This document shows positions 1,691-12,129 of a stretch of DNA of 22,152 nucleotides, piece after piece. The notes below the pieces were generated by a model. That model saw only the letters and a list, made by a program, of their open reading frames with translations, was not told the origin of the DNA and searched no databases. A program made the position numbers and the translations under genes. Positions within the stretch are counted from its first letter, which is position 1. Each line of letters starts with the position of its first letter. The stretch lies in the IMG/VR virus record IMGVR_UViG_3300028388_002695, positions 9,975-32,126 of that record; one strand, written 5' to 3'. This DNA is from a virus.

Positions 1691-2146
1691 ATGAACGCCC
1701 AAGACATCCGCGAACAGATTGCCAACCTTCAAGCACAGCTTAAAGCGCTGGAAGCCGTTCCTGAAACCGTCCAGATCCCAAATAGGGACTACGAAGTGGG
1801 CAAGACCCACGTGACGGTAGCGCAGTACCGCGTTTTCTGTGAGGACACTGAACGGGAGATGCCCAAACAGCCCGATCCTCACCGTGAGGACAATCCAGTC
1901 GTGAATGTCACCTGGTATGACGCACAGGACTACTGCGCGTGGCTGAGCGAGCAGACGGGCGAGCACTGGGACCTGCTCAGTGATGATGAGTATGAGTACT
2001 GCTGTGCAGACCACAAAGAAGGCAATCCAGATATTGCCGTCTACGATCAGACTCACATTGCTCCCGTTGCCTCTAAGGAACCGAATAAATTCGGCCTGTA
2101 CGACATGCTGGGTACTGCCTGGCAGTGGCTCCGGAGCAGCGCATGA
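1691..2146 (+). CDS. FGE/C-type-lectin-like scaffold, C-terminus missing
   Basis: A 151-residue protein starting at ATG 1691 (AGAG just upstream). Residues 1-20 form a short helix or coil. The rest resembles the N-terminal part of formylglycine-generating-enzyme (FGE-sulfatase) domains: YEVGKTHVTVAQYRVFC, then VVNVTWYDAQDYCAWL, then WDLLSDDEYEYCC, then FGLYDMLGTAWQWL. In the family the last motif leads directly into R-x-LRGGSW...GFRV. Here the frame instead stops (TGA 2144-2146), and that missing segment begins in the overlapping ORF at 2143 (ATGA). FGE-type domains with a diversified C-terminus are known targets of diversity-generating retroelements and act as ligand-binding proteins, not enzymes. 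A one-base indel that broke an originally single gene is the alternative to a genuine split. Confidence 0.75.
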   Translation: MNAQDIREQIANLQAQLKALEAVPETVQIPNRDYEVGKTHVTVAQYRVFCEDTEREMPKQPDPHREDNPVVNVTWYDAQDYCAWLSEQTGEHWDLLSDDEYEYCCADHKEGNPDIAVYDQTHIAPVASKEPNKFGLYDMLGTAWQWLRSSA

Positions 2147-2415
2147 ATAGGGCACTGCAAGGTGGCTCCTGGAACGCCAGCCCCAAAGACCTCCACGCCG
2201 CCAACCGCGACTGGGCCCAGCCGGACAACCGCTACTACGTCGTCGGTTTTCGAGTCATGAAAAAGTTAAAGGGCGCACATCGCGTCCTGCGCGGCGGCTC
2301 CTGGAGCCTCAGCGGGCGCGCCCTGCGCGCCGCCAACCGCGACAGGATCCAACCGGACCTCCGCTTCAACTTCGTCGGTTTCCGTGTGCTAAAAAGAATA
2401 CAAAATGAAAGTTAA
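2143..2415 (+). CDS. two-unit variable-repeat protein B
   Basis: A 90-residue ORF whose ATG overlaps the stop of the scaffold gene (ATGA), so translation is probably coupled. It holds two copies of the FGE/C-lectin terminal segment. Unit 1 is residues 5-38 (LQGGSW to VGFRV); unit 2 is residues 48-82 (VLRGGSW to VGFRV); both have 24 codons between Trp and the Gly of GFRV. The codons just before GGT are TAC-TAC-GTC-GTC in unit 1 and TTC-AAC-TTC-GTC in unit 2, the NNC pattern expected of retroelement-mutagenised AAC codons. A GTG at 2125 would give a longer start, but ATG 2143 fits the coupling. A receptor-binding role is inferred. Confidence 0.8.
   Translation: MNRALQGGSWNASPKDLHAANRDWAQPDNRYYVVGFRVMKKLKGAHRVLRGGSWSLSGRALRAANRDRIQPDLRFNFVGFRVLKRIQNES
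2155..2256 (+). repeat. variable-repeat unit B1
   Basis: Core LQGGSW to GFRV. Counting codons after the invariant Trp, positions 2, 6, 11, 15, 19 and 21-24 are GCC, GAC, AAC, GCC, AAC, TAC, TAC, GTC, GTC: all NNC. Confidence 0.8.
2284..2388 (+). repeat. variable-repeat unit B2
   Basis: Core VLRGGSW to GFRV. Positions 2, 6, 11, 15, 19 and 21-24 after Trp are CTC, GCC, AAC, ATC, CTC, TTC, AAC, TTC, GTC. Invariant CGC codons stand at positions 8, 12 and 20. Confidence 0.85.
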
Positions 2416-2677
2416 CCATTATGGTATTCGCGGTGGTGCCTGGGGCCTCAATCAGTACGTCGCGTGCTCAACCTTTTGCGGCAGGCTCAACCCAAACCAA
2501 AAATACGTCAACTTCGGTTTTCGTGTGATGAGAAAAGAGAACTATATGCGGCGCGTCCTACGGGGCGGCTCCTGGTTGAGCCCCCCCATGTACCTTCGCG
2601 TTGCCTACCGCAGCAGGGTCCGTCCGGACGACCGCATCAACAACGCCGGTTTCCGTGTGTTGAAACGGCTCTCTTAA
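2405..2677 (+). CDS. two-unit variable-repeat protein C
   Basis: A 90-residue ORF overlapping the end of protein B by 11 bases (AAAATGAAA junction). It starts MKVNHYGIRGGAW. Unit 1 (residues 8-41) is more diverged, but its last four variable codons are still NNC (TAC-GTC-AAC-TTC). Unit 2 (residues 51-85, VLRGGSW to GFRV) is close to the consensus, with ATC-AAC-AAC-GCC before GGT. An in-frame ATG at residue 48 directly precedes unit 2 and could allow that unit to be made alone. There is no signal peptide. Like its neighbours it lacks the FGE scaffold, so it is either an exchangeable cassette, a partner chain for the scaffold, or a remnant. Confidence 0.75.
   Translation: MKVNHYGIRGGAWGLNQYVACSTFCGRLNPNQKYVNFGFRVMRKENYMRRVLRGGSWLSPPMYLRVAYRSRVRPDDRINNAGFRVLKRLS
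2426..2527 (+). repeat. variable-repeat unit C1 (diverged)
   Basis: Core IRGGAW to GFRV with 24 codons between Trp and Gly. The framework is partly changed (RGGAW, no R-x-x-N-R), but positions 21-24 remain TAC, GTC, AAC, TTC. Confidence 0.65.
2555..2659 (+). repeat. variable-repeat unit C2
   Basis: Core VLRGGSW to GFRV. Positions 2, 6, 11, 15, 19 and 21-24 after Trp are AGC, TAC, TAC, GTC, GAC, ATC, AAC, AAC, GCC. Confidence 0.85.
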
Positions 2678-2722
2678 AGGGATATGTGAACAACAATGTC
2701 CTTAACATCTAAGAGAACTAAC

Positions 2723-2995
2723 ATGAAATACAAAGCTATGCGAGGTGGGGCTTATGGGTGCATACCAGGTTTTCTCTCCTCTGCCCTTAGAGATAAATTA
2801 GAACCATCTAACTCTTATTCCATCACGGGTTTTCGTGTGTTGAAGAGGTTAAACACGCAAACCCGTGTGCTGCGCGGCGGCTCCTGGATGGCCAATCGGA
2901 ACCTCATGCGCGCGGTCAACCGCTTAAACGACTCTCCGCCCCACCGCTTCGACATCTACGGTTTTCGGGTGTTGAGGGTAAAAAATGAAAACTGA
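2723..2995 (+). CDS. two-unit variable-repeat protein D
   Basis: The start at ATG 2723 ([11 protein letters not shown]) matches the MK-x-RGGAW starts of proteins C and E and gives the same 90-residue length; an upstream ATG at 2696 is less likely. Unit 1 (residues 6-39) keeps the 24-codon length and GFRV end but has lost most NNC codons (TAT-TCC-ATC-ACG before GGT) and is AT-rich, so it looks old or no longer diversified. Unit 2 (residues 49-83) is consensus-like with TTC-GAC-ATC-TAC before GGT. A 45-base gap separates it from protein C. It overlaps protein E by 11 bases. Function as in the neighbouring units is inferred. Confidence 0.75.
2738..2839 (+). repeat. variable-repeat unit D1 (degenerate)
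   Basis: Core MRGGAY to GFRV with 24 intervening codons. Trp is replaced by Tyr and third positions are no longer mainly C. It is recognisable by length and ends only. Confidence 0.55.
2867..2971 (+). repeat. variable-repeat unit D2
   Basis: Core VLRGGSW to GFRV. Positions 2, 6, 11, 15, 19 and 21-24 after Trp are GCC, CTC, AAC, GAC, CAC, TTC, GAC, ATC, TAC. Confidence 0.85.
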
Positions 2996-3263
2996 ATTTT
3001 ATGTGGTTCGTGGCGATGGCTGGTACACCTATCCAAGAATCGTACGTTCAACCTTCCGCAGTTTGTTTCTCCCTAATGGCACAGGCAACACTCTTGGCTT
3101 TCGTGTGATGAAGAGGTCAAAAAATACTTACCCTGTGCTGCGCGGCGGCGCCTGGTACCTCCATCAGTATCATGTCAACGTGCGCTCGGCCCTCCGCAGC
3201 AGGAACTACCGGAACTACCGGGTCGACCTCATCGGTTTTCGTGTAATGAAGGTAACAGTATGA
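2985..3263 (+). CDS. two-unit variable-repeat protein E
   Basis: A 92-residue ORF overlapping protein D by 11 bases. Unit 1 (residues 8-41, VRGDGW to GFRV) is diverged, with few NNC codons. Unit 2 (residues 51-87) is consensus-like but two codons longer than all other units (26 codons between Trp and Gly); the extra codons fall near the start of the variable segment. GTC-GAC-CTC-ATC precede GGT. It ends MKVTV, and its TGA overlaps the ATG of the next gene (ATGA), tying the array to the downstream phage genes in one operon. Ligand or receptor binding is inferred from the fold. Confidence 0.75.
3006..3107 (+). repeat. variable-repeat unit E1 (degenerate)
   Basis: Core VRGDGW to GFRV with 24 intervening codons. 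The framework and the NNC pattern are both eroded (GGC-AAC-ACT-CTT at positions 21-24). Confidence 0.55.
3135..3245 (+). repeat. variable-repeat unit E2 (2 codons longer)
   Basis: Core VLRGGAW to GFRV. After allowing two extra codons near the start, the positions matching 11, 15, 19 and 21-24 of the other units are CTC, AAC, TAC, GTC, GAC, CTC, ATC: all NNC. Confidence 0.8.
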
Positions 3264-3453: not shown

Positions 3454-3891
3454 ATGAAACGACGTAACCTTCTCGCCAGTGGCATCCTCATTGCCACCCT
3501 TCCAGACGGTGCTGCTCTGGCCGCCGCCAGCAGCGCTCAGTGTCTTGTCGCGGACTCGCAGCGACAGTTTGATCCTGCGGTATTGCGAGACCCGCTGGCA
3601 CCTTGGGAGCCTGCTGACGATGCCTTGCGCGTGACTGGAAAAGTCTACGAGTGGGGTAACAGACTGGTCTATAACTTAGGCGGACCTGGCAACTATTACT
3701 CAGACGGCTCCGACGCCCCGCGCATCCCTCCGGGCGTGGAAGGGAAGCCCGTTGATCTGCTAGTCTACTTTGGCGCCAATGATGACTGGACACAGGTAGC
3801 AAGGATCGGACCCTACCCATTGGTCCAGCCCGCAGATGGCTTCCAGGGTATTTCACCTTCTTGTATGGTCAGCGTGAGTACAAAGCCATGA
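3454..3891 (+). CDS. exported hypothetical protein, 145 aa
   Basis: Starts at ATG 3454, two bases after the previous stop. The N-terminus MKRRNLLASGILIATLP followed by an alanine-rich stretch (AALAAASS) is a probable signal peptide. The rest has no motif that I recognise; it is rich in Pro, Gly, Asp and aromatic residues, suggesting a beta-rich exported domain. One cysteine (C30) lies close to the likely cleavage site, but the residues before it are not a good lipobox. The TGA overlaps the ATG of the next gene (ATGA). Confidence 0.65.
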   Translation: MKRRNLLASGILIATLPDGAALAAASSAQCLVADSQRQFDPAVLRDPLAPWEPADDALRVTGKVYEWGNRLVYNLGGPGNYYSDGSDAPRIPPGVEGKPVDLLVYFGANDDWTQVARIGPYPLVQPADGFQGISPSCMVSVSTKP

Positions 3892-4411
3892 GCATCAAAT
3901 GGGAGATTGTTTCTGACCCTGTGCGTGATGACACAATACATATCATTAGTTCACGCCTAACCCATTCTCTTACTGAAAACTGCCCTTGCAAACCTGAAAT
4001 CTATGAAAACGAACTCATTCGCATTGTGGATCATAAGCAGTTGCCTGCTGGCAACGTCTCTAAATACAAGCGCGTCGTTAATCAACTTCAAAGTGGTCCC
4101 AGGTCAAAATTGGAGTTGAACAATTCGGCTACGCTAGTAGTGGCGCGGGGCGGATTTATGCAGAATCGGTATCCGGCCTTCCAAGCAATGAGTTACCGTT
4201 AACTGCAAAACTGGCAACAATCCAATTTAAAGCACTAGCCTCAGGGCTGGCTGTGATTGGATTTCTTTCTACTTCAGGAGGGGATTTGACTGCGGTGCCC
4301 ACAACAGGTGTCGGCACTGTCATTCGTACACAAGTCTCTGCACCTATCACGATAGTTTTGATAGGCGCGGGTTTAAGCGTATTGGTCAACTTAAAAAGGT
4401 TTCAACGATGA
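3888..4411 (+). pseudogene. two-helix membrane protein gene with apparent frameshift
   Basis: The ATG at 3888 overlaps the upstream stop. Its frame (MSIKWEIVSDPVRDDTIHII...) runs to a stop at 4202, but the last 30 or so residues look out of frame. From 4082 the -1 frame is open to TGA 4409-4411 and reads as a natural protein: KWSQVKIGVEQFGYASSGAG, a first hydrophobic helix ASGLAVIGFLS, a second ITIVLIGAGLSVLV, then KRFQR. That frame has no start codon of its own, and its stop overlaps the ATG of the next gene (ATGA), as expected for the true end. The gene is therefore probably one reading frame of about 174 residues carrying a one-base deletion between 4082 and 4202. I see no canonical slippery heptamer there. 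A small membrane protein is likely; the holin-like position is only suggestive. Confidence 0.55.
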
Positions 4412-4563
4412 CTGAAGAGACTTTAGAAGAACGTGTAGAAAGCCTTGAGCGTGAAGTGTTCGAGCAAGAAGATCTTGCATCTTCCGGCGCCAGCCCGAAC
4501 ACAAGCATCATGTATTCTAACGGCAATCCGTTGGACGAGAATCAGCCGCCTGAAAATCCGTAA
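4408..4563 (+). CDS. microprotein with SPNTS-MYSNG motif (copy 1)
   Basis: A 51-residue acidic protein. The N-terminal part (TLEERVESLEREVFEQED) has heptad spacing typical of a short coiled coil. It is followed by SPNTSIMYSNG and a proline-rich end. It is plainly related to the microprotein at 20021-20188 on the other strand (ERVE-x-LE-x-x-VF, SPNTS-x-MYSNG). The ATG overlaps the preceding stop (ATGA). In both places it sits beside small membrane proteins, which points to a shared role, perhaps in lysis or as a membrane-associated adaptor; this is inference. Confidence 0.8.
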   Translation: MTEETLEERVESLEREVFEQEDLASSGASPNTSIMYSNGNPLDENQPPENP

Positions 4564-4575
4564 GCATGCGACACA

Positions 4576-4650
4576 GCCCGTAAAGCACAACGGTCGTGCA
4601 GCCGACTCATAATCGGTAGGTTGCAGGTTCGAATCCTGCTGCGGGCACCA
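4576..4650 (+). tRNA. tRNA-Met (CAU)
   Basis: A 75-base cloverleaf. The acceptor is GCCCGTA with TGCGGGC (one G-U pair), the D stem GCAC/GTGC, and the anticodon stem GCCGA/TCGGT around the loop CTCATAA (anticodon CAT). The T arm is GCAGG-TTCGAAT-CCTGC, and ACCA is encoded at the 3' end. Position 1-72 is a G-C pair and the anticodon stem lacks the GGG/CCC triplet, so it is not an initiator tRNA. It is elongator Met, or Ile2 if the C is lysidinylated. It lies where the two opposing gene blocks meet. Confidence 0.93.
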
Positions 4651-4681
4651 TCTATTACAAGATAGGAGTACCTAATTTGAC

Positions 4682-5131
4682 TCACACCGTGAATTCACGC
4701 ACGTCTACTTCGTCACCGGCCGGCAACGGGTTCACAAAGCGCAATGTCGTGCCGGTGACAAAGTAATCGCGGGGGTCGTTAACTTCCGATCCATTCAACA
4801 CTACCTCCACAGCAGCAGGGTTCACCGGCGCGGCCGTTAAAGTGAAATCTGTCTGCCCCGCGGTCGCAATAAAAGATTGCGTCGTAATCCCCCCAATGCT
4901 TAAAGCGTTGAGCCTAGCAAGCGCCTCAGCCAGTGTTGTGTGCGCCGGGCCGCCTGGCAGTACACACAGCTTACCTACTGGCCCTGTAACTACGCAGCGC
5001 AAATGCTGCATATAGATAGGAAACTCTTGAATGAGCGCATCGGCGTCTTTTTTTGCGACACTGAGTTTCTTATTAAGATCTGCCGCAGTATCGCAGACCT
5101 GTTTGACGCAATCAATAACAGCCATGGTCAA
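4682..5131 (-). CDS. tail appendage protein, paralogue 1
   Basis: A 149-residue protein, last gene of the - strand tail operon. Residues 1-40 are helical with a coiled-coil look. The C-terminal part (FTLTAAPVNPAAVEVVLNG, then DPRDYFVTGTTLRFVNPLP, then GDEVDVREF) is a small beta domain seen in many phage fibre proteins (VxLNG...DYxVxGxTLxF...GDxVxV). The same domain ends the neighbouring protein at 5128-5550. It starts at ATG 5131, which overlaps that gene's stop (ATGA). A role as a small fibre or tip decoration is likely. Confidence 0.75.
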   Translation of the reverse strand: MTMAVIDCVKQVCDTAADLNKKLSVAKKDADALIQEFPIYMQHLRCVVTGPVGKLCVLPGGPAHTTLAEALARLNALSIGGITTQSFIATAGQTDFTLTAAPVNPAAVEVVLNGSEVNDPRDYFVTGTTLRFVNPLPAGDEVDVREFTV

Positions 5132-5550
5132 GCTCCGTAGCTTTTAAGAATGACATGGTCACGCAACTCTAGTCCTTCCACAAAAGTAAGCGTCGTGCCA
5201 GCGATTGAATAATCTCGCGGCGAACTCAGCTTAGCGCCATTCAGCACCACTTTCGCTTTGCTAGGAGCTTGTGGCAGCGTTAATGTCGTGATGCCATTTT
5301 GCGCTTGGTTATACCACTCCCACCGCCCGAACCCGGTATCCAGTGGTGACTGCAACCGTTGTAACACTTCTTCAAGAACTGGGACTTCTGGTGTGGTGCT
5401 TGACAACGTGATAAACGCACCCGGAGGAGTTTTATTGAAATCTCGAATAGGTTTATTGAAAACTCGCCAAAACTCAAGATACGCCTGCTGATATTTTGGC
5501 AAAGTTGACTCAATATCAGCAATAATTTGTCCACAGCAAGGTTCAGCCAT
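5128..5550 (-). CDS. tail appendage protein, paralogue 2
   Basis: A 140-residue protein; ATG 5550 (MAEPCCGQII) is preferred over GTG 5559. A helical N-terminal half is followed by a terminal beta domain (AKVVLNG, SSPRDYSIAGTTLTFVEGL, RDHVILKSYG) that matches the end of the 4682-5131 protein. The gene overlaps its upstream neighbour by 8 bases and the downstream one by 4. It is probably a virion tail-tip or fibre component. The duplication could supply alternate binding modules or a hetero-oligomer. Confidence 0.75.
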   Translation of the reverse strand: MAEPCCGQIIADIESTLPKYQQAYLEFWRVFNKPIRDFNKTPPGAFITLSSTTPEVPVLEEVLQRLQSPLDTGFGRWEWYNQAQNGITTLTLPQAPSKAKVVLNGAKLSSPRDYSIAGTTLTFVEGLELRDHVILKSYGA

Positions 5551-6106
5551 TTGGAGCACCCCATACAGTCTTTGACCCCAATGCCGCGGAAAATGCAGAC
5601 CAATCGGCTTCTACCTGTACGAAAGATTTCTGCAAACACGCTCTCATTTCGTCACATAGCAAATTGAACATGCACTCTGGATCAAGGTCATATTGTTCGG
5701 CTTGTACGTTAACTTCCCACAAGTCCTTTTGCAACAGGTCAACTTGATAGTTCCCGATATATCTGATGGGGTGATCAACAGGAAACCACATCGGTAACTG
5801 ACCAGTCACCATTGGCAAAAAATGCCAGTTGTAACCGTACTTCTGCGCAAAGCCTTCCCAAACGTTAAGCTGCCCTGTAGTCAGCACCCAGCTTAGGTCA
5901 TAGCGCCGAGGCTGATCGGTGTAAAGCCGCCGTTGTCGCGCTTTACCTGTCGCGACAGTGGTACGCAGCACCCCCATATCAGCTTCATAGTTGAAAGCGT
6001 CAATGCTTGGGGTCGGCACGCAGTAATCAATTGTGCTGACTTTGCCACCGAAACAAGGGTCGCCTTCAATGATTTTAGTGCAGCCCGCGCAGTCTTTATC
6101 ATTCAT
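5543..6106 (-). CDS. tail protein downstream of J
   Basis: A 187-residue protein starting at ATG 6106, which overlaps the stop of the J-like gene (ATGA). It has an unusual N-terminal cysteine cluster (CAGC, then two more Cys by residue 30) and a Trp/Tyr-rich middle with the motifs YDLSWVLTTGQLNVWEGF and MVTGQLPMWFPVDHP. The C-terminal 50 residues carry further cysteines. I cannot name the family. Its place directly after the tail hub suggests a tip component. Confidence 0.7.
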   Translation of the reverse strand: MNDKDCAGCTKIIEGDPCFGGKVSTIDYCVPTPSIDAFNYEADMGVLRTTVATGKARQRRLYTDQPRRYDLSWVLTTGQLNVWEGFAQKYGYNWHFLPMVTGQLPMWFPVDHPIRYIGNYQVDLLQKDLWEVNVQAEQYDLDPECMFNLLCDEMRACLQKSFVQVEADWSAFSAALGSKTVWGAPNG

Positions 6107-8256
6107 GTATACACCCTCGCATCGTATTCAAATGCCACTATAGAACTGCGGTACGGACCATTATGCTCCACTTCTGATACAACGCATAGCACAGGCTGCC
6201 CGTACAACGGAGTGATTTCGATAGTGTCTCCCGGCTCCAGCACCAGCGCATCTAACTCTGATTCAAACGACCAAATAAAACGATTATATTGTTCTTCTTG
6301 CCAAATACGTTTAGCGCGTGCTTGGGCGATGTTTGGGTCGATACACCCAAGTAATTTCACTTCCCGCGGACGTACAGAATTATTAGGATAAAGCTCATAT
6401 GCAGGGAGGTGCGTTTGAAAATCCCTGTATTCAACTTCTATTCCATCTTCTTCTGACCTGTTGCCCAAAGCGTAACGACGCACTAAAGAACCATCAACGA
6501 TTAGTCCGGCGCCAGCCGTACCTTCTTTAAAGCGCATTCTAGGCGTCACCGAAGGGTCGCCAGATTTTATTCTAATCTGGCGTCCTATTGGCAGTATTTG
6601 GCCTGCTACACATTGTACGACAGTCGTCAAAGCTTCCCAGACATTTGTATCAAAATCAAACGACGCATCAAAGGTGCCTGTTAACGTGCCATCCAATTCT
6701 GCAACCGGGCGTGCCGCACCGTAGTGCGGATTCATATAAATGTCTCGAAACGCATCGATCGCATTTCTTGTAGGAACCCCGTGCAGCCTGCGATTTACTT
6801 GCACGGAGACTCGGTTTAGTACATCGGGGCTCAAGCCTTGCGTTGCTTTTACTTTCAACGCTAACAGCGATACATCCCCATAACCAGGCTGTCCGTAATC
6901 AGAGTAATCAAATGCTTTTAGTTGCGTCCACCAAACGTCGTCCCCAACACGGCCTCCTTTATCACTCTTCACACTGAGATTAGTAACCTCAGTTCTATAA
7001 CGATTCTCGGGAACAGCGATACTATGCGTAAGACGTTTAGGCGTTACTGTTGCATCTGTTACTGTTATGGTTTCAGTATGTGCGTATCCTCCAGCAACCA
7101 CATTACCTGAAGAATCAATTTCTTCAATCTTAAATCGAAGAGTTGAATTTCGTTTGCTTAAAGATCCGTCATCTTCAGTAAAATACAAACCCTGTCTATA
7201 TACTAAATCATAAGCAATTAAAGATGTTACATCTTGTTCTCCGCAGACATTAATCCAAAACGTGTTAATGGGTAATAAATAAAACCCGCGCAACTGCGTC
7301 CCAATCGGATGCGGACCTACAGGGTCAGCGGGGTCTGGGTTAACATTAAATCGATCCCCATTAACGTTCGTTATAGTATATGTTTTTCCATCATCAGCTT
7401 GTATATCGGTACCAACTTGTAAAGCTTCAAAACTGGTTAGTCCTTTTATCTCAGTCGGAGCAGATACTTCAAACAACAGCTCTTGATACGAATGCTCAAG
7501 CTGTAAGTCAGTGACTTCTTCTGATGTGTGGCAATTTTCCTGCAATCCAAATGCCGCTTCAATTTCTCCAATTGTTTGATTGTGTTGACTAGACCAAAAG
7601 AATTGATGTGTTACGATTCCTGGTGCAAGGGTTCTCGCGGGGGTGTTACCGAATATGATGTCGCCAAACTCGTATTCACCTTGCCCTAAGCAGAAGAGCA
7701 TATAAACGTATTGTTCATTATTTTCATACAGACTATAAGGATACGCCGCATAGTCTGGCGTTATACGCAGGTTCCCGTAATGCACAGGAATAACGTCACC
7801 GAGCCGCGTTTGATTGGTAGGCAAAGCCAGATTATAGACAGACTCAGCTTTTGGCTTAGCAAGACTAGCAGGGCTTTGTGGTGTCGCTAACTTCCCCGGC
7901 TTAGGCGCGAGTAGGTAACTGACCGCGGTAAGCGCCAGTCCAACAGCAAGCGAAGACAGCACCGCTGAAGATGCGACCGCTGAAGCAATAGCCCCGATTG
8001 CTGCGACAATAGCGCCAAAAATGCCGGGTGTTACCAGCAACACTACCTCGTCACGCGGACCGAGGCGGCGGTCGTAATCTTCAACAGGCAAATACTCGCG
8101 GTTCAAAAACGTGCGGTGCGTGCCTGGAAATCCGTCGGGATATTCTCTATTCAGAAACCCGCTTTCACCATCATTCGAGCAATACGGACCTACCCACTCG
8201 TATTCAACACGGTCGTGTGGATTCAGGGGATTGCTAAGAACAATGATGCGTGCCAT
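6103..8256 (-). CDS. J-like tail tip / host specificity protein
   Basis: A 717-residue protein, shorter than lambda gpJ (about 1130). The N-terminal 75 residues are an extra domain with an internal FLNREY repeat. Next comes a long hydrophobic stretch (about 77-118, IFGAIVAAIGAIASAVASS) ending YLLAPKPGK, typical of J-like proteins. The hub-like body begins ALPTNQTRLGDVIPVHYGNLRI and includes the YVYMLFCLGQGEYE and DIIFGNTPA motifs characteristic of the phage tail-tip J family. It forms the central baseplate hub of a siphovirus tail; receptor-binding regions lie C-terminal. The gene follows the NlpC/P60 gene, the conserved lambda K-(I)-J order. The lower GC here than in the tape measure and head-closure genes suggests a different history. 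Confidence 0.9.
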   Translation of the reverse strand: MARIIVLSNPLNPHDRVEYEWVGPYCSNDGESGFLNREYPDGFPGTHRTFLNREYLPVEDYDRRLGPRDEVVLLVTPGIFGAIVAAIGAIASAVASSAVLSSLAVGLALTAVSYLLAPKPGKLATPQSPASLAKPKAESVYNLALPTNQTRLGDVIPVHYGNLRITPDYAAYPYSLYENNEQYVYMLFCLGQGEYEFGDIIFGNTPARTLAPGIVTHQFFWSSQHNQTIGEIEAAFGLQENCHTSEEVTDLQLEHSYQELLFEVSAPTEIKGLTSFEALQVGTDIQADDGKTYTITNVNGDRFNVNPDPADPVGPHPIGTQLRGFYLLPINTFWINVCGEQDVTSLIAYDLVYRQGLYFTEDDGSLSKRNSTLRFKIEEIDSSGNVVAGGYAHTETITVTDATVTPKRLTHSIAVPENRYRTEVTNLSVKSDKGGRVGDDVWWTQLKAFDYSDYGQPGYGDVSLLALKVKATQGLSPDVLNRVSVQVNRRLHGVPTRNAIDAFRDIYMNPHYGAARPVAELDGTLTGTFDASFDFDTNVWEALTTVVQCVAGQILPIGRQIRIKSGDPSVTPRMRFKEGTAGAGLIVDGSLVRRYALGNRSEEDGIEVEYRDFQTHLPAYELYPNNSVRPREVKLLGCIDPNIAQARAKRIWQEEQYNRFIWSFESELDALVLEPGDTIEITPLYGQPVLCVVSEVEHNGPYRSSIVAFEYDARVYT

Positions 8257-8655: not shown

Positions 8656-9143
8656 CGCCGCACCAATGCCGGAAACATATCCCCACGATACAACTGCCGT
8701 GGAAACCGTTGATTAAAAATGTCTGACCGAGTGGCGGTCCCTCTGAACACTTCACGGGTCAGTTCTATGTCGCTAAGATGTAAATGAAACGGCGGGTCAA
8801 ACTGCGGTGCTAAGTCGCCTTCAATATACTGCGTGAACTCGCAGACAATCGGCTGCTCTGGCTGCTGTTTGATTTTATCCAACGCCTCATACATCTCTTC
8901 ACCAATGTTGCAGATGACTACCTGCAAGTCTTGCTGCCCTTCGCCGTCCAGCGTCGGCAGCGTCACTTCAAACGGGATTGGTACAAACGTGCGTGTTCCG
9001 CCGTTAAATGTGCCCCTCTGTGGTGACTGTGCATTGGTCAGATACGACGTGCCCGCAGCGGGGTGTGAGATGATAAGCGCATCCCAGAAGTCCACATCTA
9101 CTTCAGACGTGTAGCGGGCTTGCATTGCTGCTGAGAGTGTCAT
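8652..9143 (-). CDS. DUF1833-like minor tail protein
   Basis: A 163-residue protein starting at ATG 9143 (MTLSAAMQARYTSEVDVDFW); an upstream extension through the GGCNN repeat is clearly non-coding in character. The signature ALIISHPAAGTSYLTNAQ followed by FVPIPFEVTLPTLDGEG and LQVVICNIGEE fits DUF1833 tail proteins that replace lambda gpL/gpM-type tip proteins. GGAAAG lies about 12 bases before the start. It is separated from the tape measure gene by a terminator-like hairpin and the GGCNN array, so it may have its own transcription start. Confidence 0.8.
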   Translation of the reverse strand: MTLSAAMQARYTSEVDVDFWDALIISHPAAGTSYLTNAQSPQRGTFNGGTRTFVPIPFEVTLPTLDGEGQQDLQVVICNIGEEMYEALDKIKQQPEQPIVCEFTQYIEGDLAPQFDPPFHLHLSDIELTREVFRGTATRSDIFNQRFPRQLYRGDMFPALVRR

Positions 9144-9163
9144 ATTATATGCTTTCCTGTCCG

Positions 9164-9233
9164 GGCATGGCTTGGCGGGGCTAGGCGCGGCTGGGCTAGG
9201 CAAGACGCGGCCGGGCGCGGCGTGGCGCGGCGC
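9164..9233. repeat. 14-unit degenerate pentanucleotide array GGCNN
   Basis: Reading + strand from 9164, 14 consecutive five-base units share GGC and vary in the last two bases: AT, TT, GG, TA, GC, TG, TA, AA, GC, CG, GC, GT, GC, GC. One unit is GAC instead of GGC. The array is followed directly by the hairpin at 9237-9271. It lies between the tape measure gene and the DUF1833 gene. A five-base period rules out ordinary in-frame codon repetition. Confidence 0.9.
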
Positions 9234-9236
9234 GGG

Positions 9237-9271
9237 AAAACCCTCAACGAGTTTATCTTGTTGGGGGTTTT
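9237..9271. terminator. bidirectional terminator hairpin after tape measure gene
   Basis: AAAACCCTCAAC (9237-9248) pairs with GTTGGGGGTTTT (9260-9271) with one G-T wobble and an 11-base loop. It lies just past the tape measure stop (9277, - strand). TTTT ends each arm on either strand, with a longer T-rich tract on the + side. It is probably an intrinsic terminator or attenuator within the tail operon. Confidence 0.75.
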
Positions 9272-9276
9272 CATTT

Positions 9277-12129
9277 TTAACGCCCCCGCCGAACATTTGG
9301 ATACGCCTGGCCAAAACTGCGAGAAAGAGAATTACCTCCCCTTGCAATCATTTCGGTAACTTCGCCAATCACAACGTCAACGATCTCACGATCCCCGAGC
9401 TGGCGCCTGCGCTGGCTGACTGGCTCGCCGCTGTAGTTGTTGATGTTCACTGTCGTACCGCCACCCTGCACGCCGAGGTCTCCGCTAGGCATGCGCCGCA
9501 AAGGCAGAATCGCCTCGGGGCCCGCTTCACCGAGAACCCCGCCCCGAGCATACCGCTTCAGCGGACCGGGGTCTGGCGTCTGGAAGAAGGTCGGCTGCGT
9601 GTAGACGCCTTGCGGCAACGCCAGTCGGTTGAATGCCGCGCCTTGTGCGAAGAGCCCGCCAAGAAGCTCTCCCAGACCTCCGCCACCCGCGAGACCGCCC
9701 AAAGCGTTGGTGAGCGCATTGCGCAGGAACAGCTTAGCTAGGTCCGCGGCCAGCTCGCGCAGGGCATCCCGCAGCCGGACGGTACCGTCCACCGCAGAGT
9801 CGATCCAGGAGCCGAAGGCGTCCTTCACCTGAGTGCCTGCCTGCTCGGCCACCTCCTGCATCGGGTTCTTGAGTTCGCCGAGGGCGTCCTGAAGCTGCTG
9901 GAGCCGTTCGGCATACTGCTGGGTCGTGATCAGTCCTGCATCGAGCTGTTGGTTCAGGAGCCGCTGCCCCTCGCGCATCTTGTCGGTGAACTCCGTGGTC
10001 TGCTCGAACTGCGCCATGAACTCGCCCCAGGCACGGGCGCTCTCGCGGACCGCTTCTTCCTGCTCCTTCTGCGCACGGGTCAGCTTCTCCTGCGCAGCCG
10101 TCACCGGTGCCAACGCCTGACGGACGTTAGCGAAGTATTCCTGCTGCGTGATATCCCCCGCTTTATAGAAAGCCGTCAGACGATCAACTTCCTCCAGATA
10201 CTTTTGAAGCTCCGACTTGGCGTTATCACGGATCTGCTGAATCGTGCGCTCACGTTCTTCTTGCGCTCTAGCTGCTTCTTCTTGCGATCTTTGAAGGTTT
10301 TCGTATGTAGCTTCTAGTTCAAACGTCTCTTTACCCAGCGCGTTCATCAACGCGAGTTGATCTTTCCAGATGCGGTTACCATACTGCCGCCCTGTCAATC
10401 CATTATTCGGTCCAATAGTCTGATCAATACCTCCCGTATTGACCGCCCCCGACCCGAGGAAATACCGCGCATAAGCCTCTACGGTATCCCCACTTGCCTC
10501 TTTTAACTTCTCGGCAATATAAAGCGCCGACGCTTTAATATTCTCCTGCCACCCGTCAATGCCTGTCCGGATCAGTTTCAAGTCCAGGTTATATTTGTTG
10601 GCAAGATATTTAGCAGTACCTTCAATAATTTGCCCCGGCCCTCTCGCAGAAGACTTGGGATTTGCAAACTGTGTGAAACCCCCCGTCTCCAGCTTCATCT
10701 TTGCGATCAAGCCTTCTACAGAAACCCCTGCTTGCTGAGCAGCTTGAGCAATAGACGGTAAAAACTTACGAAGATTAGCAGCGCCTGTTTGAGACAAATT
10801 CAAGACTTGCGATATCTTCTTCGCCATTTCATCCAGATTAGCAAGATACGCATCCGCAGAAGCCCCTCCCATATCAAACTGAGGCATTGTGAATTTAACG
10901 AAGGCTTCCGAAAAACCTTCCATCTGCTGTCGCAGTCGTACAACCTCAGCTATGGTGTCTTTTGTTGCATTATCCAGCAATATTGAAAGCGTAATCGCCC
11001 TGGTACGCCGGAGTTCTTCAAGCTTTCTCTGAATTCTCGCAATCTCGGCATCTATGATGTCAGCATTCGCTTCTGTACGCTTTCCAAATCTGTCAAATAC
11101 CCCTGCAATTTCTGTTTGAGCTTGAGCAATACCGACTGAAGCTTGTTCAAAAGCGCGCTGAACATCTTGAATCGGTAACGTTTGAATATCGGCTAGTGAA
11201 GTCGCCGCATTGATAGTGCTTCTATTCAAAGTCGAAGCTGACGCTTCCAGAACGCCTTTGAAAAAGTCAGACACCCCGAAGCGACGATCTACAGAAGCGA
11301 TTGCATTGGTCCAAGCGTTCTCAAATCGCTTCGCAGCAAACGACAGTAGATCGGGGAGCTTTTCAAAATCTTCTTCCAGGTTCTTAAAGACTTTGTCAAA
11401 GGCACGCAGCATTACGTCCGTGGTCAGCTTGCCTTCCGAACCCAACTCCTTAGTCGTCTTCGTCGTTTTCAGAATCGACTGAACGGCCCGCTCCAGTTGC
11501 AACCCAAGCTGACCGGCGTTCTCGTTCAAGGACCGCAACTCGTCGCCTGCGAGCTGCCCCGAGCCCAATGCCTGTGCAAGCTGTATAGTGACAATCTGCG
11601 CCCGGCGGGCATCCGTGCCGAACACCCGCATCGACTTGGTCAGGTTTTCGGTAAACTTCGCGACCTTAGAAAAAGGCACCCCAACGCGCTCAAAAGCGGG
11701 CGCCAACAAGGCAACGTTGTCCGCCGCCTCTTCCAGCGTCAGACCGAGTTCATCAGCAAGCTGCGCAGCCTGGGCAAGATTCGTCGCGCCCCCCGACCCG
11801 CCGAGCCGGCTCAGGCGCGTGTTCATCAGGGTCAACTGCTCGTTCGCTTTGGCGACGCTGATACCGAAATCAACAACACTGCGCCCCATCCAGAACAATT
11901 GCTGCCCCAGATAAAACAGACCGAGCCCCTTCAGGATTCGGCTGAACTTCGCAATCTTAGCTTCGGCTTGGTTAAAGCCGTCTGCCATACGTTTGGTGTT
12001 CTTCTGGATCGCAGCCGTATTGCGCGCCGTAGTCTTCGTTGCGGCGTCAATATCCTTCAGAGTCTTGATGAGCCCTTTAGCGTCGCCCTTGATTTCGATA
12101 AGGCGAGTGACTTTCTGTTGTCGAGCCAT
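9277..12129 (-). CDS. tail tape measure protein with SLT domain
   Basis: A 950-residue tape measure protein that sets tail length. The N-terminal 1-60 is coiled-coil, followed by the conserved tape-measure domain (about 90-290: LAQAAQLADELGLTLEEA, QLAQALGSGQLAGDELRSL, LGLQLERA). Residues about 455-595 form a soluble lytic transglycosylase/lysozyme-like domain, with the probable catalytic Glu near 481 in MKLETGG and the SARGPGQI motif. Residues 600-770 are charged coiled coil. The C-terminus has FARGGVLGEAGPEAILPL and GGGTTVNINNY, the hallmark lambda-type tape-measure end. The muralytic domain would help the tail cross the cell wall. It starts 6 bases after the upstream gene. Confidence 0.96.
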   Translation of the reverse strand: MARQQKVTRLIEIKGDAKGLIKTLKDIDAATKTTARNTAAIQKNTKRMADGFNQAEAKIAKFSRILKGLGLFYLGQQLFWMGRSVVDFGISVAKANEQLTLMNTRLSRLGGSGGATNLAQAAQLADELGLTLEEAADNVALLAPAFERVGVPFSKVAKFTENLTKSMRVFGTDARRAQIVTIQLAQALGSGQLAGDELRSLNENAGQLGLQLERAVQSILKTTKTTKELGSEGKLTTDVMLRAFDKVFKNLEEDFEKLPDLLSFAAKRFENAWTNAIASVDRRFGVSDFFKGVLEASASTLNRSTINAATSLADIQTLPIQDVQRAFEQASVGIAQAQTEIAGVFDRFGKRTEANADIIDAEIARIQRKLEELRRTRAITLSILLDNATKDTIAEVVRLRQQMEGFSEAFVKFTMPQFDMGGASADAYLANLDEMAKKISQVLNLSQTGAANLRKFLPSIAQAAQQAGVSVEGLIAKMKLETGGFTQFANPKSSARGPGQIIEGTAKYLANKYNLDLKLIRTGIDGWQENIKASALYIAEKLKEASGDTVEAYARYFLGSGAVNTGGIDQTIGPNNGLTGRQYGNRIWKDQLALMNALGKETFELEATYENLQRSQEEAARAQEERERTIQQIRDNAKSELQKYLEEVDRLTAFYKAGDITQQEYFANVRQALAPVTAAQEKLTRAQKEQEEAVRESARAWGEFMAQFEQTTEFTDKMREGQRLLNQQLDAGLITTQQYAERLQQLQDALGELKNPMQEVAEQAGTQVKDAFGSWIDSAVDGTVRLRDALRELAADLAKLFLRNALTNALGGLAGGGGLGELLGGLFAQGAAFNRLALPQGVYTQPTFFQTPDPGPLKRYARGGVLGEAGPEAILPLRRMPSGDLGVQGGGTTVNINNYSGEPVSQRRRQLGDREIVDVVIGEVTEMIARGGNSLSRSFGQAYPNVRRGR

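Follow-up and report, generated by a model that had tools for sequence, protein, structure and literature searches.

When the AAC codons of a template repeat (TR) are mutagenised at adenine by a diversity-generating retroelement (DGR), a footprint of NNC codons is left in the variable repeat (VR) of the target gene. To our knowledge, the DGR target proteins known so far are single chains. Among those of the FGE type, TvpA of Treponema denticola (PDB 2y3c) is one chain with one VR, and TaqVP of Thermus aquaticus, which has the FGE subtype of the C-lectin fold and lacks the FGE catalytic triad, is likewise a single chain with one VR as its C-terminal segment (PMC6328139). The phage locus described here shares with them the FGE subtype and the C-terminal type of VR, whereas its scaffold and VR lie in separate genes and the VR occurs eight times. 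Multiple VRs, tandem VR-bearing C-lectin domains, remote targets and activity in trans are known for cellular DGRs (PMC6642488, PMC10907252, PMC7517822), and for phage BPP-1 an IMH and a hairpin next to the VR have been described (PMC3240598). According to its authors, a large DGR survey (PMC8144416) would miss targets remote from the reverse transcriptase (RT), and targets below 300 nt were at first set aside in it; VR-only loci would therefore easily have been missed. The open-access literature searched contained no description of minigenes that encode only VRs and accompany a split scaffold, nor of diversifying VR arrays in phages lacking an RT.

The window, that is, the whole stretch of 22,152 nucleotides that was analysed, comprises bases 9975–32126 of the 32,126-base IMG/VR virus record IMGVR_UViG_3300028388_002695, and an N gap of 27 bases ends directly before its start. 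Coordinates given below for this phage are those of the window. On its minus strand, the record carries an endolysin gene and a tail module of siphovirus-like type; replication-type genes occupy the plus strand, which is also the strand of the VR array. Neither end repeats nor a capsid or terminase gene were recognised in the record, which is probably a genome fragment. No relatives of its J-like tail protein were found in the viral contigs searched.

Several other features were observed around the array. A PEP-CTERM surface-protein gene is located at 31–705; in the L038 phage, whose FGE gene is, among the fused ones, the closest to ORF A (the gene preceding the array), a gene with a PEP-CTERM-like end (8716–9438) directly adjoins this fused FGE gene. 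A 56-bp leader occurs twice, at 746–801 and 1001–1056, with 91% identity between the copies. Two hairpins were predicted in each copy, the second showing a U-A to C-G exchange (TGCTG..CAGCA and TGCCG..CGGCT); the folding was no better than that of shuffled sequences, no Rfam family matched the leader and no further copy was found elsewhere in the record. Downstream of the array, the product of a frame at approximately 3454–3891, for which no Pfam match was obtained, begins with a likely signal peptide (MKRRNLLASGILIATLPDGAALAAA), and a tRNA-Met gene (anticodon CAT, 4576–4650) separates the array region from the convergent tail genes.

The eight RGGxW...GFRV units of the original prediction were confirmed, two in each of the plus-strand ORFs B, C, D and E. 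The start of ORF B (2143–2415) overlaps the stop of ORF A (ATGA) in another frame, with an SD-like GGAG upstream, and this ORF contains units B1 (2158–2256) and B2 (2290–2388). ORF C (2405–2677), which overlaps the end of ORF B, contains C1 (2429–2527) and C2 (2561–2659), while ORF D (2723–2995, with an alternative start possible at 2696) contains D1 (2741–2839) and D2 (2873–2971). ORF E (2985–3263) overlaps the end of ORF D and contains E1 (3009–3107) and E2 (3141–3245). The nearly constant core of 24 codons proposed for the units fits the part that follows the Trp, the constant length from RGG to GFRV being 33 codons, with the exception of E2 (35 codons). The start-to-start spacing of units is exactly 132 nt inside all four ORFs and 136–180 nt between ORFs. 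All four ORFs are intact and encode VR segments only; SD-like sites precede ORFs B, D and E and the gene after E, while that of ORF C is only weak. When ORF B alone was modelled with AlphaFold2, a pLDDT of 42 was obtained, which lends no support to a two-unit ORF as a protein that folds confidently by itself, although this failed fold is weak evidence because only five sequences were used in the input.

The identification of the units as DGR-type variable repeats was borne out by their footprint, their family and their comparison with independent TRs. In B1, B2, C2, D2 and E2, the eight codons listed by the original prediction (positions 6, 11, 15, 19 and 21–24 after the Trp) have the form NNC in every case, two E2 codons being omitted. 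At 15 canonical variable columns, chosen from known FGE-type template repeats and thus independent of the array units, C-ending codons number 13 in B1, 14 in B2, 12 in C1 (P=9e-5), 12 in C2, 11 in D2 and 13 in E2 (two codons omitted for alignment), as compared with 4.5 expected from the C3 usage of the phage (0.30); the binomial P for B1, B2, C2, D2 and E2 ranges from 6.7e-4 to 5.1e-7. The description of C1, D1 and E1 as older, decayed units holds for D1 (4/15), which has lost the footprint and kept the framework, and for E1 (8/15), which has mostly lost it, but not for C1, in which it is kept. Pairwise differences among the five units are not spread evenly over codon positions, amounting to 0.73/0.59/0.23 at positions 1/2/3 of the variable columns as opposed to 0.13/0.18/0.33 at framework columns, where the order is reversed. 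The framework codons, which had been regarded as fixed, vary widely at their third positions.

A similar picture emerged when the units were compared with TRs from other genomes. Relative to the best of these, an outside TR from a Phycisphaerales MAG (L044), the five units mismatch at 57–68% of the adenines and at 16–27% of the other positions. Differences are therefore concentrated at template adenines and at first and second bases, except in D1 and, for the most part, E1, the templates used for this comparison being foreign ones. As the record contains no TR, no agreement with a cognate template at the non-A bases was observed. In D1, mismatch to the outside TR reaches 0.73 at third bases and 0.26 at non-A first and second bases. 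The framework columns of C1, D1 and E1 differ by 0.56 at third bases versus 0.24/0.31 at first and second bases, as under protein-level constraint. These patterns make adenine mutagenesis the likely source of the variable codons, after which the framework has drifted, unless the units were derived from several templates. Since framework codons vary among the window units, recent copying from one template is unlikely, and recent diversification of this array from a single template is unsupported. The last homing events in the window phage would thus not have been recent, with D1 and E1 apparently drifting as ordinary framework-constrained sequence.

The original prediction, correct as to the eight units, omitted ORF A, which belongs to the same locus, and hence the separation of the VRs from their scaffold. 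ORF A (1691–2146, plus strand) encodes an FGE-sulfatase/C-lectin-fold scaffold chain with an N-terminal helix, as judged by a Pfam match to FGE-sulfatase (E=6.3e-23), an AlphaFold2 model with a pLDDT of 87, Foldseek matches to PvdO and human FGE, and a match to PHROG 18508 whose best stretch spans positions 42–133 of 266. ORF B matches positions 220–263 of the same 266-position family, and the two ORFs thus cover complementary stretches of it. ORF A ends with GTAWQWLRSSA, at the point where related proteins go on into RVLRGGSW. The correspondence extends to TvpA, as ORF A matches its GLYDM-GNVWEW region and the profile of the array units, for which the TvpA VR is the best solved match, aligns exactly at that VR. 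Both halves of an FGE-type target are therefore recognised, in separate ORFs rather than as one chain with a C-terminal VR.

A split locus like that of the window was found in record G002 from another metagenome (locus L003). There, an N-part ORF (7526–7996) ends in GHIWEWCQDEHN and is overlapped by a two-unit ORF starting at 7983, its two VR units being 44 codons apart. Five genes are collinear between the window phage and G002, with identities of 29% for the exonuclease, 50% for VRR-NUC, 40% for the helicase, 32% for the N-part and 40% for the VR ORF; G002 has a 126-bp end repeat and phage structural genes. The split of VR from scaffold is conserved in this distant collinear relative. VR-only ORFs accompanied by VR-less N-parts were also found in L002, L006, L007 and L018, the two genes being non-adjacent in L007, while in L004/L005 the units precede the N-part in what can be read as a single long frame. 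The split is not the rule among viral FGE genes, most of which carry a single fused VR in the survey. When closer relatives of L003 and L018 were sought, the scans recovered no loci other than these two.

In some relatives, the units bear marks of recent diversification. L004 and L005 are loci of two related phages with near-identical sequence next to the array: their first unit is identical, and they differ at 2/54 positions in the linker and 7/585 downstream, whereas the two tandem VR units lying between these stretches show 19 differing codons, the third base being kept in all of them. This is the pattern that recent DGR homing would leave, and it bears out the view that arrays of such units diversify in related phages. 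The record containing L004 (G003) is that of a tailed phage with terminase, portal, tape measure and primase genes. The seven units of L018 differ by 0.57/0.50/0.02 at codon positions 1/2/3, and the unit pairs of L006 and L007 show no third-base changes at variable columns; as the variable columns of these three loci were picked from the units themselves, the third-base figure is informative and the high first- and second-base values are not. The cultured Microcystis phages Ma-LMM01, MaMV-DC and MaMV-CH01 carry an ordinary fused FGE gene, in which differences by codon position are 0.44–0.48/0.32–0.48/0.12–0.20 in the VR core and 0.06–0.12/0.06–0.07/0.11–0.21 in the N-part. In cultured Microcystis phages, the FGE-like gene is annotated as a kinase (L065, 4980–5720; L172 and L173, 2980–3717).

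With a probability of roughly one half, the locus is a split DGR target, the variable modules of which have been detached from their scaffold and are diversified by a DGR that acts in trans and is not carried by the phage. ORF A would make the constant FGE/C-lectin scaffold lacking the C-terminal variable segment, and each of the small separate chains made by ORFs B–E would contain this segment twice. The variable codons would have arisen when a DGR template repeat was copied with mutagenesis at its adenines, as indicated by the footprint. The mutagenising DGR would most likely belong to the host or to a co-infecting element, because the circularly assembled relatives contain neither RT nor TR. 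The loose B–E chains would probably attach to the A scaffold or complete it, one constant chain thereby pairing with several variable chains. A wider proposal, offered tentatively, is that RT-less phages may maintain a two-chain hypervariable binder, consisting of a constant C-lectin scaffold and interchangeable hypervariable chains, and borrow the DGR of the host in trans.

The alternative that survives best, although it is fairly unlikely, regards the locus as the relic of a broken DGR target, in which A lost its VR by frameshift and B–E are functionless duplicated leftovers of the VR. The disappearance of the NNC footprint from D1 and E1 and the drift of the framework are consistent with decay, and in T. 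denticola truncated target genes of 58–136 aa were set aside as suspicious (PMC4891356). However, a relic would not be expected to keep the same split in a relative as distant as G002, nor to have all its ORFs intact, most of them with SD-like sites, and a framework that in C1, D1 and E1 differs mainly at third bases; moreover, VR-only units elsewhere have been recently diversified.

The absence of RT and TR from the window, as originally reported, extends to the whole 32,126-base record, in which no RVT_1 match and no tblastn match with three DGR RTs were obtained, and in which the best matches to a TR were the units themselves, with no AAC-rich stretch. The original prediction took such an absence, genome-wide, to count against a DGR; as the record is a fragment, this argument is not strictly applicable, and the circular relatives also contain neither element yet carry clean footprints. 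Records G002, G003 (L004), G006 (L007) and G017 (L018) have end repeats of 126–225 bp, as in circularly assembled genomes, and were taken as complete on this basis; no RT match and no N-rich template unit was found in any of them. Given their clean footprints, the absence points to activity in trans and not against a DGR origin. RVT_1 was matched in only 3 of the 83 viral records surveyed, which comprise the present record, 37 found mainly by a VR query and 45 found by an N-part query; fragments among them may miss an RT by chance, but circularly assembled and cultured genomes would not, and the cultured Microcystis phage genomes likewise gave no RVT_1 match. Units of the circularly assembled relatives have diversified in genomes that carry neither RT nor TR; for the window phage, the genome of which is incomplete, diversification in trans may apply as well. 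It is unlikely, and somewhat more so than a relic, that the array is the normal target set of a complete phage-borne DGR whose RT and TR are located in the portion of the genome absent from the record. The record is indeed a 32-kb fragment lacking end repeats and recognisable capsid and terminase genes, but the circularly assembled G002 has the orthologous split locus with no RT or TR, and the low frequency of RT among the viral records also argues against such an arrangement.

Searches for the source of the templates extended beyond these records. No match was obtained when cultured phages and plasmids were searched with the VR and with TR peptides, or when viral contigs were searched with restrictive DNA patterns of TR and framework; in genome contigs, these patterns returned one TR, that of L044 (1175–1266, RGGSWNNNPRNLRSANRNRNTPTNRNNNNGFRL). 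Since this TR lies on a short gapped contig, the Phycisphaerales MAG is not proposed as the host. Planctomycetota genomes contain TRs with a similar framework, most of them with an RT in the same 3-kb stretch, which indicates that cellular DGRs with such templates exist and not that one of these organisms is the host. No host and no matching TR were found for the window phage.

With regard to function, the array shares its strand with the replication genes, and in G000, G002 and G003 it faces the structural genes on the other strand; therefore, an intracellular or accessory binding role, for instance against host defences, may be slightly favoured over tail receptor-binding. The same position on the replication-gene strand would suit a decoy, in which free VR chains copied from host DGR targets disturb host C-lectin sensors (proposed antigen sensors of multicellular bacteria), and an association with anti-phage systems has been described for the C-lectin targets of cellular DGRs (PMC10907252). 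This possibility is nevertheless improbable, as the phage keeps its own scaffold chain A, which would be needless for a pure decoy, and no host sensor was identified.

The array is not unique, contrary to what had been supposed, as arrays of 3–7 units were found in L002, L004/L005, L015, L018, L079/L117, L087 and L116. In L087, two neighbouring VR units, at 5618 and 5762, are identical, and arrays are rearranged between the related contigs L079, L116 and L117 (approximately 4400–6700), which suggests that arrays may grow and shuffle by tandem duplication and recombination. Such rearrangements would also be expected of a store of silent VR donors recombining into an expressed VR-bearing gene, a very improbable explanation given that B–E look translated and that neither the window record nor G002 yielded a fused VR-bearing FGE gene that could act as recipient.

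If the reading as a split target is true, the separation of the scaffold from several loose variable chains would offer combinatorial binding diversity to a small phage genome, in an arrangement loosely like the constant and variable chains of immune receptors, and a mutating enzyme of the host would also serve its parasite. Such use in trans is directly testable in the cultured RT-less Microcystis phages with DGR-like VR differences. Their FGE-like genes (Ma-LMM01 MAP_037 and relatives, PHROG 18508) are homologous to ORF A and show DGR-like differences in the VR core in genomes without an RT; unlike ORF A, they are fused to one VR and a further C-terminal segment. The DGRs of Thiohalocapsa PB-PSB1 (PMC10907252) also act in trans on their targets, in which C-lectin domains with VRs are arranged in tandem, but they are cellular, with complete C-lectin domains in one large protein and RT and TR elsewhere in the same genome. 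The remote variable proteins of cyanobacteria (PMC7517822) are similarly far from any RT, although they are encoded by whole C-lectin genes in cellular genomes and not by VR-only phage minigenes. Finally, in BPP-1 and other phage DGRs, as in the present locus, a phage binding site of the C-lectin type is diversified specifically at adenines; in these systems RT and TR are carried by the phage and the targets are tail or receptor-binding proteins, whereas here neither element was found and the array and the tail genes lie on different strands.
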